Source: an uncultured Synergistales bacterium (GTDB lineage Bacteria > Synergistota > Synergistia > Synergistales > Aminobacteriaceae). From it: a stretch of DNA of 42,767 nucleotides. The notes beneath the pieces were generated by a model. It was not told the origin of the DNA and ran no database searches. It worked only from the letters and a program-made list of their open reading frames with translations. Positions 1-5,402 of the stretch are shown here, one piece after another. The stretch spans positions 1 to 42,767 of the forward strand of contig CAJOMU010000022.1 of NCBI GenBank assembly GCA_905235735.1, given 5' to 3'. The translations under genes and the position numbers were made by a program. Numbering within the stretch: position 1 is the stretch's first letter; each line of letters starts with the position of its first letter.

Positions 1-3
1 CAT
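1..3 (-). CDS. Third Nif11-type precursor gene (start codon only)
   Basis: The minus strand at the left edge reads GAGAGGTAAACAGTATG, matching the ribosome binding site and start codon of the precursor gene at 89-396 (GGGAGGTAAACAGTATG). The preceding ~95 bases also match the spacer before that gene. A third tandem copy therefore begins here and runs out of the window. Only its ATG is visible, so its core peptide and reading-frame status are unknown. The call is inferred from the repeat. Confidence 0.6.
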
Positions 4-34
4 ACTGTTTACCTCTCGATTTGTTTCCTGCTGG

Positions 35-66
35 AAAAAACTGCTGCCCCCGAAAGAGCAACAGTT
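35..66 (-). terminator. Intrinsic terminator behind precursor copy 1
   Basis: On the minus strand a 9-bp stem (58-66 with 39-47, AACTGTTGC with GCAGCAGTT, one G-T pair) closes a ten-base loop and is followed at once by a T run (bases 35-40). It lies about 20 bases after the precursor stop codon and just before the ribosome site of the next copy. The same structure follows copy 2. Confidence 0.75.
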
Positions 67-88
67 CAATACATTTCAGCTTACCATG

Positions 89-396
89 TTACAATGTCGA
101 AATTACGTCGGCACCTCCGCAATCGTAGGGCATAAGGTTGCCACACACCGACCGTCTGCCGCCTGCAACCGCTTTCATCTCTTCGGGGGAGATTTCTTCC
201 ATTTCACCGAGCTTCAGTCCGTGTGCCTCTGCTACCTTTGCCGCTGCATCAGTGAGTGCCTTCTGTGCTTCGTCCTTGAGGCCCTTCTCTGCTACTAATG
301 CCTTCAGTGCCTCAAGTCAAGTGATGCCTTCTCAAGTTCCGCCTGTACTGCCTTATTGCTTGCTACAAGTTCAAAAAACTTTTTGCTGTCTGACAT
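89..396 (-). pseudogene. Nif11-leader RiPP precursor, copy 1 (frameshifted)
   Basis: From ATG at 396 the frame reads MSDSKKFFELVASNKAVQ and then hits a stop at 304-306 after 30 residues. A 5-bp tandem duplication (CAAGT twice, 313-322), absent from copy 2, shifts the frame. Removing it gives about 100 residues: an Ala/Glu/Lys-rich helical leader, the segment MEEISPEEMKAVAGG with a double-glycine cleavage site, and a 22-residue core starting RRSVCGN and holding two Cys, two Ser and one Thr. This layout matches Nif11-like leader (NHLP) precursors of post-translationally modified peptides. The ribosome site GGGAGG is good. Leader and core downstream of the indel remain open, so the break looks recent. 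Modification type cannot be told because no maturation enzyme is in the window. Confidence 0.75.
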
Positions 397-427
397 ACTG
401 TTTACCTCCCGATTTGTTTCCTGTTGG

Positions 428-460
428 AAAAAAACTGCTGCCCCCGAAAGAGCAACAGTT
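428..460 (-). terminator. Intrinsic terminator behind precursor copy 2
   Basis: Same hairpin as at 35-66: stem 452-460 with 433-441 on the minus strand, then a run of about seven T. It sits between the copy 2 stop codon and the copy 1 start, so copy 1 and later copies would be transcribed only by read-through. The ~30 bases between it and the copy 1 ribosome site leave no room for another full promoter. Confidence 0.75.
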
Positions 461-474
461 CAATACATTTCAGC

Positions 475-761
475 TTACCATGTTACAATGTTGCATACAA
501 TATGCGATACTGCACCGGTACAATTATAAGTGCCGCCTGCAACCGCTTTCATCTCGTCAACGTCAAGCTCTTCCATTCCGCCGAGCTTGAGTCCGTGTGC
601 CTCTGCCACCTTTGCCGCTGCATCAGCGAGTACCTTCTGTGCTTCGTCCTTGAGGCCCTTCTCTGCTACTAATGCCTTCAGTGCCTCAAGTGATGCCTTC
701 TCAAGTTCCGCCTGTACTGCCTTATCGCTTGGAGTTCAAAAAACTTTTTGCTGTCTGACAT
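475..761 (-). pseudogene. Nif11-leader RiPP precursor, copy 2 (frameshifted)
   Basis: First gene after the promoter, with ribosome site AGGAGG at 771-776 and ATG at 761. It starts MSDSKKFFEL like copy 1, but four bases are missing right after this point (copy 1 reads CTTGTAGCAAGC, copy 2 CTCCAAGC). The frame ends after 27 residues at 678-680. Restoring the four bases gives about 96 residues: the same leader (ALKALVAEKGLKDEAQK, then KLGGMEELDVDEMKAVAGG) and an unrelated 18-residue core, TYNCTGAVSHIVCNIVTW, with two Cys. Leader identity to copy 1 is high while the core is entirely different, as expected for a RiPP family with hypervariable cores. An assembly error cannot be excluded. Confidence 0.75.
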
Positions 762-794
762 GTTTTGTTACCTCCTGAAAAAATCTTGTTATAT

Positions 795-822
795 ATTTTA
801 TCATTAATTTGATTGGTGTCAA
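795..822 (-). promoter_or_regulatory. Sigma-70 promoter of the RiPP precursor array
   Basis: The minus strand carries TTGACA (817-822), a 16-base spacer and TAAAAT (795-800), close to consensus, about 35 bases before the ATG of copy 2. It begins only eight bases after the arnT stop codon. The array can therefore be expressed independently of the arn operon, although no terminator separates them. Confidence 0.75.
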
Positions 823-829
823 TACTCAA

Positions 830-2434
830 TCAATAATTCGCTATAACTATATCTGAACTCGTCTGCCATTCACGTTTTGCTCCTGGAAAACATGAATGCA
901 CATAGTCGCTGTTCTTGTTCCGTGAGGTCAGTATTATATGACGCTCTGAGTTCCATAGTTCCTGTGCTCTCTTCGTATCTATGAACCATTTATCACGCTC
1001 GTTATCCTGTTCTGCTCCGAATTCCAGTTCATCTATTATGTCTGCGGTTATCGTCCGGCGTTCAAGATAGTAATTCATTCCCTGCATTAACTTCTGAAAG
1101 ACTATCACGTCTTCAGGGCTTTCATTCCTGATGATTTCGGCGGCCTCTTTATGGGATAATAACTTTCCTTCAACTATAAATGCTCCTGATGCTGAATACA
1201 TGCACAGCACTCCGATCATGCACATCATGACTGATAAGTTCTTTCGGGGAAGAATGAAGGTTACTATCGTGAAGATGAAAAGCGTAACTGAAAGCATTAA
1301 CGCAGGAATTCTCATAGCAATTACATCAGTGTCATTCGTGTACATCGGCCAGATTATTCCCGTCAATGCCAATGGGATTAAGATTATCGCATTCAGTATG
1401 ATAAACGTCCTGAACTCTTTACCCTCGTATGATTGAAGTATCCCTCCGAATAATACTGCTAACGGCGGGTAACACGGAAGAATATACGTTACGAGTTTCG
1501 AATCAGAGAATGAGAAGAATATGAACGTCATGAAAAACCATAAACCTAAAAATATTCCGTCGGACTTCGCAATTAATCTGCACTTTCCAAGCATGGCCTT
1601 CATTGAATCCCATAGTAAGCCCGTGTATGGAACTAATCCGGCTATCAGTATCGGAATGAACCAGTATACAGGCTGATAACGATCGTGAATCGTCGTCGTG
1701 TATCGCAGGAAATGTTCACGTATGAAGAAGAAGTAAAAGAAGTCAGGATTTGCTATGCACACTGGAATGAACCAGATGCAATTTACGATGAAGAAGATTA
1801 TTATTGCTGAAGGTGAGAATATCCGCGTGAGTATGCGTTTGGCCTGGCCTGTCATTATTGCATATATCACAGCTATTCCTCCAGGCAGAACTACTCCGAT
1901 TAATCCCTTCGTCAGTACTGAGAGTGCCATTGAGACATAGAACATAATCAGCCAGAATTTTTTACTCACATCATCAACCCACATTCGGAAACAGAACAGC
2001 GATAATGTGAAAAAGAATGTTAATGCCATATCCGTTATGTTTATGTGCGATATTCCGAACCATAATGTACATGAGGCCAATATAATCCCTGACATGAATG
2101 AGGCCCGTTTATCCTTCGTGATTTTGTACGCCAGAAGTGATGTTACTGCACATCCCAAGAGGCCAAGCAGAACAGGCGTAAATCGTCCGGCAAATTCATT
2201 CTGTCCGAACACCTTGAATGATGCAGCCGTGAACCAGTAATGCAGTATTGGCTTCTCGAAATATTTCACGTAATTCAGTTTCGGTGTTATGTAGTCTCCC
2301 GATTCAATCATCTCACGCGGTATCTCCGAATAACGGCCTTCATCCGGGTCAAGGAATCCGTAATCACCCAATCCCGAAAAATATACATACACCACAAGCA
2401 GAACTGCTAATACACAGAATATCTTCTTAGTCAT
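830..2434 (-). CDS. arnT: ArnT: aminoarabinose transferase to lipid A
   Basis: Membrane glycosyltransferase (GT83/PMT family) that moves 4-amino-4-deoxy-L-arabinose from undecaprenyl phosphate to lipid A on the periplasmic face, lowering negative charge and giving resistance to polymyxin and other cationic peptides. The 534 residues compare with about 550 in E. coli. After the first membrane helix comes the family motif DPDEGRYSEIPREM, then YFEKPILHYW, and many hydrophobic helices up to about residue 410, with a soluble C-terminal part. The start overlaps the upstream decarboxylase gene by eight bases (ATGACTAA), so translation is probably coupled. It is the last arn gene. No arnE/arnF flippase genes follow; the RiPP array comes next. 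Confidence 0.9.
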   Translation of the reverse strand: MTKKIFCVLAVLLVVYVYFSGLGDYGFLDPDEGRYSEIPREMIESGDYITPKLNYVKYFEKPILHYWFTAASFKVFGQNEFAGRFTPVLLGLLGCAVTSLLAYKITKDKRASFMSGIILASCTLWFGISHINITDMALTFFFTLSLFCFRMWVDDVSKKFWLIMFYVSMALSVLTKGLIGVVLPGGIAVIYAIMTGQAKRILTRIFSPSAIIIFFIVNCIWFIPVCIANPDFFYFFFIREHFLRYTTTIHDRYQPVYWFIPILIAGLVPYTGLLWDSMKAMLGKCRLIAKSDGIFLGLWFFMTFIFFSFSDSKLVTYILPCYPPLAVLFGGILQSYEGKEFRTFIILNAIILIPLALTGIIWPMYTNDTDVIAMRIPALMLSVTLFIFTIVTFILPRKNLSVMMCMIGVLCMYSASGAFIVEGKLLSHKEAAEIIRNESPEDVIVFQKLMQGMNYYLERRTITADIIDELEFGAEQDNERDKWFIDTKRAQELWNSERHIILTSRNKNSDYVHSCFPGAKREWQTSSDIVIANY

Positions 2435-3437
2435 GATATGCTCCTAATGTCTTTCTCACTGCCTCACGCAATGTTACTTTTGGCTGCCAGCCTAAACTCA
2501 TTATGTTGTTGATTGAGGGTACACGGTTCTTCGTGTCATCGTAACCGTTCGAGTAATAGCTCTCTGGTGAAATCGTTACAACTTTCACGCTCTCTGCATT
2601 ACGTCTGAATGATGAGAATGATTTCATTTCATCTATGATTATCTCTGTGAGTTCGCGAATCGAATAGTTGTTGTTCGGATTGCCTATGTTGAATATTCTG
2701 CTGTCTGCACGATTGCCTTCGTTCCTGAGAATTAACATCAATGCATCTGTTCCGTCGCCTATCCATGTAAAACTGCGTCTCTGTTCTCCGCCTCCGACAA
2801 GTTTCACCTCTCCGCGATTCAGAATGTCGTAGATTATCTGCGTTAATGAACGTGCACGATGTTCTTTCGCGTCATTCATCGTGTCCAGTCCCGGCCCAAT
2901 CCAGTTGAACGGTCTGAACAATGTGTACTGCAATCCCTTTTCCTGTCCGTAGGCCGTGATTACACGATCTATCATCTGCTTGGAACAGCTGTATATCCAT
3001 CGCATTTTATTCACCGGGCCAAGTACTAACGAGCTGGTCTCTTCATCAAGATTCGATGAGCCGTCTGACATTCCATAGACTTCTGATGTTGAAGGGAAGA
3101 TTACACGCTTTCCATACTCTACACACATTCGGATAACTTTCAGGTTCTGCTCGAAGTCAAGTTCAAATGTCCAGAGTGGATGTGTGAGATAGTATGAAGG
3201 CATTGCTACTCCTGCAAAAGGTAATACTACATCACTGATTTTCACCTGCTCACGAATATATTCCGTCTCAGTGAATATATCCCCCTTGTAACATGTGAAT
3301 CGCTTATGCCCTGAAAATTTCTCAAGTCTGCTCGTGTTGATGTCAAATGCACTTACTTCATAATCTGTCGTGTTCAGAAGTTTTTCAGTTAAATGCGTGC
3401 CTATGAAACCGCCTGCTCCTAAGATAAATACTCTCAA
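2427..3437 (-). CDS. arnA: UDP-glucuronate C4 decarboxylase (ArnA C-terminal half)
   Basis: Stand-alone version of the dehydrogenase/decarboxylase half of ArnA. It oxidises and decarboxylates UDP-glucuronate to the UDP-4-keto-pentose. The 336 residues form an extended short-chain dehydrogenase with the N-terminal NAD motif GAGGFIG (7-13), the catalytic region PSTSEVYG, and YSCSKQ with Tyr and Lys. VVLPFAGVAMP, FELDFEQNL and LFRPFNWIGPGLD follow the E. coli ArnA sequence closely, which separates it from generic epimerases. In enterobacteria this domain is fused behind the formyltransferase; here the two are separate genes with arnD and arnB between them. It overlaps arnB by four bases (ATGA). 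Confidence 0.9.
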   Translation of the reverse strand: MRVFILGAGGFIGTHLTEKLLNTTDYEVSAFDINTSRLEKFSGHKRFTCYKGDIFTETEYIREQVKISDVVLPFAGVAMPSYYLTHPLWTFELDFEQNLKVIRMCVEYGKRVIFPSTSEVYGMSDGSSNLDEETSSLVLGPVNKMRWIYSCSKQMIDRVITAYGQEKGLQYTLFRPFNWIGPGLDTMNDAKEHRARSLTQIIYDILNRGEVKLVGGGEQRRSFTWIGDGTDALMLILRNEGNRADSRIFNIGNPNNNYSIRELTEIIIDEMKSFSSFRRNAESVKVVTISPESYYSNGYDDTKNRVPSINNIMSLGWQPKVTLREAVRKTLGAYHD

Positions 3438-4504
3438 CTGTTATTTTTCCTCCTCATGAATTCCTTGATAGTCTCTGCTACCCTCTTCACATCTTCATCT
3501 TTCATCATTGGGTATAACGGTAACGATATTTCCTGCTCATAATACTTTTCAGCCTCCGGGAAATCTCCGTCATGATAGCCGTAATGCTCACGATAATATT
3601 TATGCAATGGAACGGGCTTATAGTGTGTCGTGGGGTTGATGTCATGTTCACGAAGATACTCTGATAGTTCATCGCGTAGATTATTCGTTACCTGAAGTGC
3701 GTAGATGTGCCACAGATGATTTTCATGTTCCGGCGGAAGTATTACGTTCTCAACTCCCGATAACTGTTTCTGATACATCGCGGCTAATTCCCTGCGTCTG
3801 GCTATGAATTCATCAAGCCGATTCATCTGGCTCAACCCTAATGCACAATGTATCTCTGATAGTCTGTAGTTGTAACCGAGTTCAATCATCTCTTTCTGAT
3901 ACATTCCGTGATTCCTGAAACGCAATAACCTCTCTGCATATTCGTCATTGTTCGTGAGGACTGCACCGCCTTCACCTGTCGTTATGTGTTTCACAGGGTG
4001 AAAGCTGAGTGTCATCATGTCTGCAAATTCTTTCCTGTCATGGCCTAATGCATGACTTGCATCTTCAATCAGTATCGCTTCTGGTGCAATTGCCCTGTAT
4101 GCTTTGATGTCCAATGGATAACCCGCAAAACTCACCGGCACTATTGCCCGTACTGGTTTCGTGATTCGTGTCTTAGTGTTCAGGCATAATGTCTTTGGGT
4201 CTATGTCCGCAAAAATGGGAGTTGCTCCTGTGTAGATTATGCTGTTTGATGTTGCAGCGAATGTCAGTGCCGTTGTCAGTGCGTAATCCCCTTCTTGAAG
4301 TCCTGCTGCATTCATCGCTCCGTGCAACGCCGATGTCCCTGATGAGAATGTTATTGCATGTTTCATTCCTACGTATTCGGCTAACTTCTTCTCGAATGCT
4401 TCAACTGTAGGCCCCATTGTAAGCCAATCACCGCGCAATATTCTCACTACTTCTGCTATGTCGTCATCATTTATCCATTGACGGCCATATGATAACTTCT
4501 TCAT
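3434..4504 (-). CDS. arnB: ArnB: UDP-4-keto-pentose aminotransferase
   Basis: PLP enzyme of the DegT/DnrJ/EryC1 family that transfers the amino group of glutamate to UDP-4-keto-pentose, giving UDP-L-Ara4N. It has 356 residues, near the family's usual length. Visible motifs: DWLTMGPTVEAFE near the N-terminus, SSGTSALHGAM for phosphate binding, LIEDASHALG with the cofactor Asp, and SFHPVKHITTGEGG with the Schiff-base Lys. The set is diagnostic for sugar aminotransferases, and the place in the arn operon fixes the substrate. It overlaps the downstream decarboxylase by four bases and follows arnD after 19 bases. Confidence 0.9.
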   Translation of the reverse strand: MKKLSYGRQWINDDDIAEVVRILRGDWLTMGPTVEAFEKKLAEYVGMKHAITFSSGTSALHGAMNAAGLQEGDYALTTALTFAATSNSIIYTGATPIFADIDPKTLCLNTKTRITKPVRAIVPVSFAGYPLDIKAYRAIAPEAILIEDASHALGHDRKEFADMMTLSFHPVKHITTGEGGAVLTNNDEYAERLLRFRNHGMYQKEMIELGYNYRLSEIHCALGLSQMNRLDEFIARRRELAAMYQKQLSGVENVILPPEHENHLWHIYALQVTNNLRDELSEYLREHDINPTTHYKPVPLHKYYREHYGYHDGDFPEAEKYYEQEISLPLYPMMKDEDVKRVAETIKEFMRRKNNS

Positions 4505-4523
4505 GTTCTAATTCTAAGTCTCC

Positions 4524-5402
4524 TTACTGCTGTACCGCTAATGTTCCTGCTCTGCCTTTGAGAGTTCCCATTGTGATTCGCGAATGCACAAGCTCTGAAT
4601 TTCTCAATGCATCTCTCAACGTCAGAAATTCTATATCATTATCACTGCATTTACGCAGAAATTCTCTGAATGTATCATACATCATTCCGCCTTCCATCTC
4701 CGTATGTATCGTATGAACGTTCAGACCTTCGTGTAAAAGTTTCATGTAATAATCATTGAGCATATCTGACGGAACATATACGAGTGCTTCGTCCATTGTG
4801 GGAAGTGTTGAAGGTATCTGCGGAGTCCTGAATGATACGCCGTCTATCTCTGATATGAAGGGTGAATAGCCACGTACATCACTGCAATAGTCGAAATCTA
4901 ATTCGTCCTGCACATATAAACTGTCCTTTGTTACCTGCCAGCCTGGAGCAGCACATGATCTCGCACGTTCTCCTGAAATCTTCTCGTAGAGTTCCAATGC
5001 CTTGTTGAATTCCGCAAGTATATTTTCTCGTGTCAGCTTGGGCAAATTATCCTGCCAGTAAACATGATCCCATGAATGTATCCCGCAGTCATGGCCTTCA
5101 TATAATGCCCTGCGAATCAAATCAGGGTTCGATTCCGCTATCATTGGGGCTGGAAGTAATGTGCCGTATAACATCGTCTTTAATCCGTAGGCTGTCGTGG
5201 CTTTCGTCTTGAACATCTTCGTTATGAATCCTTTTCGGAATATTCGCCGTATTGCCTTGCCGGAGTTGTCAGGCCCCATTGAGAAAAATATCGATGCTTT
5301 AACTTTATGTTCATTCAGTGCGTCTAAGAGCTTAGGCAATCCTTCGGTGTAACCTCTCAGAGTATCAATGTCTATCTTTATCGCTAATTTAATTCTTCCC
5401 AT
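4524..5402 (-). CDS. arnD: ArnD: deformylase of undecaprenyl-phosphate-Ara4FN
   Basis: NodB-type polysaccharide deacetylase that removes the formyl group from lipid-linked Ara4FN at the membrane, making the sugar ready for transfer. 292 residues, usual size. It starts KLAIKIDIDTLRGYTEGLPK with the metal-binding Asp pair, then KASIFFSMGPDN and GIHSWDHVYWQ with the metal-binding His residues, all matching E. coli ArnD. Later PSTLPTMDEAL and VHTIHTEMEGG also match. The start ATG at 5402 lies 19 bases inside the upstream formyltransferase gene. Confidence 0.9.
   Translation of the reverse strand: MGRIKLAIKIDIDTLRGYTEGLPKLLDALNEHKVKASIFFSMGPDNSGKAIRRIFRKGFITKMFKTKATTAYGLKTMLYGTLLPAPMIAESNPDLIRRALYEGHDCGIHSWDHVYWQDNLPKLTRENILAEFNKALELYEKISGERARSCAAPGWQVTKDSLYVQDELDFDYCSDVRGYSPFISEIDGVSFRTPQIPSTLPTMDEALVYVPSDMLNDYYMKLLHEGLNVHTIHTEMEGGMMYDTFREFLRKCSDNDIEFLTLRDALRNSELVHSRITMGTLKGRAGTLAVQQ

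Follow-up and report, generated by a model that had tools for sequence, protein, structure and literature searches.

The stretch of DNA analyzed here (the window) comprises 42,767 nucleotides (nt) from an uncultured Synergistales bacterium. Within its positions 1 to 761, the minus strand encodes two RiPP precursors in tandem and, as a further start codon, the beginning of a third. Unit 1 is the first to be transcribed (ATG at positions 759 to 761) and is followed by unit 2 (ATG at positions 394 to 396). The features of the array and of the enzyme gene behind it are as follows:

795-822, minus strand: candidate sigma-70-like promoter, TTGACA-N16-TAAAAT, in which TG precedes the second hexamer (consensus scan, 11/12, best of 5 sites)
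759-776, minus strand: ribosome-binding site AGGAGGT and ATG of precursor unit 1 (from the sequence)
475-761, minus strand: precursor unit 1, made up of leader, YNC-type core, and stop; 4 nt are deleted near 731
475-531, minus strand: core of unit 1, TYNCTGAVSHIVCNIVTW, and stop
426-461, minus strand: hairpin CUGUUGCUC-UUUCGG-GGGCAGCAG, then a U run, in the interval separating unit 1 from unit 2 (fold z −3.3)
89-396, minus strand: precursor unit 2, made up of leader, RRSVC core, and stop; 5 nt are duplicated in tandem within 310-324
89-157, minus strand: core of unit 2, RRSVCGNLMPYDCGGADVISTL, and stop
31-67, minus strand: the hairpin again, downstream of unit 2 (fold and sequence)
1-3, minus strand: start codon of the third unit (CAT, the first three bases of the window; from the sequence)
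L036:17564-18979, on contig C17: radical SAM/SPASM enzyme of 471 amino acids, directly after the precursors

The window begins at a contig end inside a repeat, and the end of contig C17 of the same genome lies within this repeat as well, in matching orientation. C17 carries two more precursors, DSWWDYYKCLLGNFGF (5′-truncated) and ESWWEIYKRLLESLGA, with the radical SAM enzyme directly after them. In the sister genome G038, a Synergistales genome from reindeer, contig C21 (CAJOLN010000021.1) matches positions 158 to 4922 of the window on one side and L036:12956-19601 of C17 on the other, and holds between them the enzyme (L057:4812-6227) and an array of two genes, both with intact frames (L057:4149-4436 and 4520-4819). 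Because a single G038 contig spans both sides, the window contig (C22) adjoins C17, and because the window array continues there, this genome has at least four units compared with two in G038. The body of the third unit is probably the 5′-truncated precursor at the C17 end (L036:19354-19599), as judged by synteny with G038. The last precursor gene (ESWW, no Cys) abuts or overlaps the start of the enzyme gene (L036:18979-19000 and L057:4812-4822) and holds its likely ribosome-binding site, which suggests translational coupling, a role that the gene might have in place of supplying a substrate.

An initial annotation of the window had proposed a tandem RiPP precursor array in a probable Synergistota-like host. 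The array was confirmed, with two units and a third start codon in the window and further units on C17, and the nearest relatives were indeed Synergistaceae and Synergistales genomes from ruminants. The annotation had seen the copies correctly (its copy 1 is unit 2 here), but both are frameshifted and the array extends past the window. It had also suggested looking leftward for more copies, for LanM, radical SAM or YcaO enzymes and for a C39 exporter: more copies, a radical SAM enzyme and a C39 exporter were found, whereas the single LanM belongs to another array and this genome has no YcaO, which leaves neither as the array enzyme.

As assembled, neither window copy is a full open reading frame, since each carries one indel in its leader: the deletion near position 731 breaks the frame of unit 1 and the duplication within positions 310 to 324 that of unit 2. 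We left these copies unmended and used intact orthologues in their place; that of unit 1 lies at L057:4149-4436 in G038. Both frameshifts might be genuine, in which case the window units would be decaying pseudogenes and only the C17 copies would be made and modified; broken precursors in other genomes (e.g., G030 C2 and G022 C85) fit this explanation. However, the core and the C-terminal leader are still open in both copies, and the core of unit 1, of a type kept in three more loci of two genomes (L057; L058 and L059), has a nearly identical counterpart in the intact G038 orthologue. Moreover, C17 breaks off within the shared repeat exactly at the site of the 4-nt deletion, so that an assembly fault there is plausible, if unproven. 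We therefore regard decay of the window units as a serious but doubtful possibility, and one compatible with the reading of the family given below; in the living strain, the window copies may be intact or broken.

The leaders of units 1 and 2 share 92.1% DNA identity over 189 nt, which, by sequence comparison, far exceeds chance over such a length, and the 63 nt downstream of both cores are 100% identical. The cores themselves are unrelated, with an alignment score of 19 that 22 of 1,000 shuffles also reached, and the small excess fits the common 3′ DNA end of both cores. This common end, ACATTGTAACATGGTAA, is read in unit 1 as the end of the core (IVTW, then the stop) and in unit 2 in another frame with an earlier stop, so that the end of the unit 2 core, ACATTGTAA..., and that of the unit 1 core stem from the same DNA in two frames. 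Between the GG codons and the common end, the unit 2 core departs from that of unit 1. As far as sequence can tell, such a pattern would be expected from the replacement of an internal segment and not from gradual divergence. The two leaders are 92% alike within the genome, compared with 87% between unit 1 and its G038 orthologue, with hardly any change in the YNC core between the two genomes. The proposal of the initial annotation that exchangeable cores lie between conserved flanks, with near-identical DNA after each core, thus held true, as alike leaders precede unrelated cores and the same hairpin follows each of them.

The exchange of cores could alternatively be a chimeric artifact in which assembly joined different strains or array copies, given that the contig ends in a repeat with two indels nearby and that the RRSVC core was found in no other genome of the genus; a 27-nt piece of it had no further occurrence in 43 genomes, and no donor was found. 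However, alike leaders with unrelated tandem cores were also observed inside contigs elsewhere (L057, L061, L064, and L084), and we consider a chimera unlikely. Leader and core identities within arrays amounted to 82% and 18% in L061, 81% and 28% in L057, and 83% and 23% in the C21 array; across arrays, leaders were 75 to 96% and cores 18 to 73% identical. Such arrays would evolve by tandem duplication and local recombination, which would keep leaders and hairpins alike within a genome while new cores replace old ones in the interval from the GG codons to the hairpin, and broken copies build up.

The hairpin consists of a 12-bp stem with a short loop and is trailed by a U run. In 8 copies, 96.9% of the cells were paired and 4 cells had two-sided changes, which was better than in slid controls. 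In L058, L059, and L061, the hairpin is also found immediately ahead of the enzyme gene. A terminator scan of positions 1 to 900 of the window reported none, probably because some of the U residues are taken up by the stem; as folding and comparative pair counts support the hairpin, we did not count this result as negative. The hairpin is probably a terminator or attenuator. Upstream of its first precursor, the G038 contig carries TTGACA-N16-TATAAT, and the candidate promoter at positions 795 to 822 would drive at least four tandem precursors (TYNC... and RRSVC..., then DSWW... and ESWW... on C17), followed by the enzyme. If many transcripts stop early at the hairpin and U run, more precursor than enzyme would be made.

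While the initial annotation saw no modification enzyme in view, the adjoining contig C17 encodes a protein with a Radical_SAM domain (PF04055, 67 bits). Its cluster cysteines (105, 109, and 112) and the cysteines at SPASM positions (359, 406, 409, 415, 419, and 439) are invariant in 30 homologues; the Pfam SPASM model itself had no match in this protein. The domain, together with the cluster and C-terminal SPASM-type cysteines, identifies the protein as a radical SAM/SPASM peptide maturase. The solved structures closest to its AlphaFold model (pLDDT of 89) are those of peptide-modifying radical SAM enzymes such as SkfB, SuiB, anSME, ChlB, and CteB; residues 3 to 442 of the model align with residues 2 to 439 of SuiB (Z of 24.4), and SkfB likewise covers most of the model. 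When the first 90 residues were used alone, the top matches were leader-bound lasso B1 proteins and SuiB, followed by MccB, a heterocyclase, CteB, and TigE. The RRE matches of this segment, singly weak with E values of 0.015 and above, were together scored as an RRE, and the segment is accordingly modeled as a predicted leader-binding RRE domain, a feature typical of radical SAM/SPASM peptide maturases though absent from some. Among named NCBIfam maturases (TIGR04064, TIGR04103, StsB, ScmE, PapB, and others), no cutoff was approached, the best score being 99 bits against 525. In PHROGs and PADLOC, the protein had just generic radical SAM and viperin matches; a viperin function was rejected because the precursor linkage, the RRE-like domain, and the SPASM cysteines point to peptide maturation.

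A scan of genome contigs revealed 36 related enzyme loci, most of them metagenome assembled and mostly from ruminant or gut sources; no enzyme homologue was found in the plasmid collection at an E value of 1e-50. The hosts comprise Synergistaceae, Clostridia, Selenomonas, a Mailhella genome, Butyrivibrio VCB2006, and Bullifex porci; for Mailhella, a binning error is possible, since the contig is short and carries a precursor that barely differs from that of Butyrivibrio VCB2006. An iterated precursor profile matched beside the enzyme in most of the 36 loci; no match beside the enzyme was obtained in L067, L069, L075, L089, and L090, some of which are truncated or broken. Related loci often have several GG-leader precursors with alike leaders and divergent cores. 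Within the genus, 13 of 43 genomes carry both enzyme and precursor and 29 carry neither, with a weak precursor match alone in the remaining one (Fisher p = 4e-10). In the enzyme tree, where the analyst assigned core-type labels on the basis of core sequence to all but ten rows, YNC-type loci and Gly-rich CxC loci each fell on one side of a branch among the labeled rows, so that enzyme lineage and core type go together. The Gly-rich cores have up to three CxC motifs (CACPVVGGGTGTGKQCGC...), as in L016:9281-11922 and L064:5071-8249, and this type is common to Clostridia, Bullifex, and others.

The leaders are about 80 residues long, and their double glycine (G77 and G78) is invariant in 36 precursors, which places these peptides among the double-glycine-leader RiPP precursors. 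As 25 of 36 precursors touch the Pfam model Bacteriocin_IIc (E up to 0.1), they could be taken for unmodified class II bacteriocins with an unrelated radical SAM gene nearby. Both the leader length and the presence of an enzyme with an RRE-like domain beside the precursors in most loci, with the significant co-occurrence given above, argue against it and make this explanation highly improbable.

The precursors had further been assigned Nif11 leaders (TIGR03798), an assignment that fails by score for the window clade: the window peptides had no match to this model, and the nearest intact orthologues reached 9.8 to 18.8 bits against a cutoff of 32.3. Distant precursors linked to the same enzyme family attain 34 to 51 bits, and because of this divide we use "Nif11-like" only loosely. 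The initial annotation had named the lack of a Nif11 match, combined with a lack of modification and C39 export genes in the genome, as evidence against its proposal; the match is lacking, but both kinds of genes exist.

Two other contig ends of this genome, C21 (L012:8708-9990) and C19 (L014:5634-10085), carry at least five Nif11 precursors, a LanM (TIGR03897, 426 bits), and another radical SAM/SPASM enzyme. These ends probably join and form a prochlorosin-like lanthipeptide array in Synergistota. The window precursors might then be lanthipeptide precursors on which this LanM, encoded on C19, acts in trans. Its own array, however, has a distinct leader type, with profiles that align to the window clade over 19 columns only, around the GG, whereas the window array has its own enzyme immediately behind it, in a pairing conserved across species. 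An action of LanM on the window precursors therefore appears very unlikely.

As anticipated by the initial annotation, the genome has a C39 peptidase; this single copy belongs to an NHLM-type ABC gene pair on contig C25, not to the array cluster. Its best matches score just under the cutoffs (TIGR03796, 845.9 of 853.3; TIGR03797, 679.6 of 709.4), and the relatives L090 and L068 pass an NHLM cutoff with one subunit each. NHLM-type ABC genes lie within the fetched flanks of 13 of the 36 loci, including L059 with its YNC-type core. In L059, the NHLM-type genes come first, MacB, outer-membrane efflux, HlyD, and ABC ATPase genes come next, and the array comes last. Downstream of the array and enzyme, L059 encodes a D-Ala-D-Ala dipeptidase-type protein (Peptidase_M15; L059:10905-11582) that could serve in self-protection.

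With its observed array, adjacent enzyme, family-wide linkage, and paired hairpin, and with an RRE-radical SAM-SPASM architecture predicted by sequence and model, the region quite probably represents the 5′ part of an operon for a small library of ribosomal peptides that undergo leader-guided radical SAM maturation and C39 export. The N-terminal RRE would grip the common leader and present any attached core to the same active site, where the enzyme would install radical cross-links, most likely Cys thioethers to an alpha or a non-alpha carbon, of the sactionine or ranthionine type, on cores with two Cys. The NHLM-type C39 exporter on C25 would then cut after the GG and export the product, which would probably act as a bacteriocin or a signal between gut bacteria. 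Cys is absent from some cores (ESWW...), so that thioether formation cannot account for every outcome. Tentatively, and with a likelihood not far short of even, we propose that one leader-guided radical SAM enzyme accepts unrelated cores with and without Cys and forms more than one kind of cross-link, as a radical counterpart of ProcM in gut anaerobes of several phyla.

The array itself is best read as the radical SAM counterpart of prochlorosin-type arrays. The lah cluster of Lachnospiraceae C6A11 is a lanthipeptide cluster. The part of its description covered here reports nine Nif11 precursors (LahA1 to LahA9) with diverse cores and a C39 transporter-protease, LahT, that cuts after the GG, and makes no mention of a radical SAM enzyme of this family (PMC6363468). 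Prochlorosins (ProcA/ProcM) likewise combine many precursors, a conserved long GG leader, and hypervariable cores with one promiscuous enzyme (PMC10783134). However, that dedicated enzyme is a LanM, whereas a radical SAM/SPASM enzyme with an RRE-like domain follows the array here, the hosts are gut anaerobes, and the window-clade leaders fall under the TIGR03798 cutoff. Haft, Basu and Mitchell defined the TIGR03798 leaders in 2010, tied them to NHLM ABC exporters, and described hypervariable cores behind one enzyme set; the N11P/NHLP systems in the covered part of that paper involve cyclodehydratases or LanM, with no mention of such radical SAM maturation (PMC2887384). Hypervariable cores behind Nif11 leaders have thus been known since 2010, with prochlorosins and the lah cluster as later instances that use LanM enzymes, and it is the pairing with this radical SAM enzyme that is absent from the libraries and open papers searched, subscription papers and preprints being outside this scope; the earlier suggestion of an undescribed family holds to that extent and goes no further.

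SuiB, SkfB, and CteB share the fold and domain order of the C17 enzyme at just 14 to 18% identity; to our knowledge, maturases of this type have one or few precursors each. The nif11-class radical SAM maturases (TIGR04064 and TIGR04103; PlpX spliceases) are likewise radical SAM/SPASM enzymes paired with Nif11-type precursors, but TIGR04103 aligns to the radical SAM core of the C17 enzyme with 80.7 bits against a cutoff of 725, which makes the latter a nonmember. Substrate-tolerant leader-guided enzymes are wanted as tools for cyclic peptide libraries, and LanM examples are known. If our reading is correct, a radical SAM/SPASM enzyme with naturally unrelated cores would offer different cross-links, with the natural arrays as ready-made substrates. 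The arrays also display, at the DNA level, the exchange of cores between fixed flanks.

Two further loci were noted. On contig C34 of this genome (L013:5687-7580), a Nif11-type precursor overlaps a different radical SAM gene, nearest to the TIGR04463 and Clo7bot types but under their cutoffs. Finally, L084:82-2314 carries five tandem precursors with large Trp/Tyr/Cys-rich cores that have APDGHE...C in common and apparently constitute a distinct peptide family.
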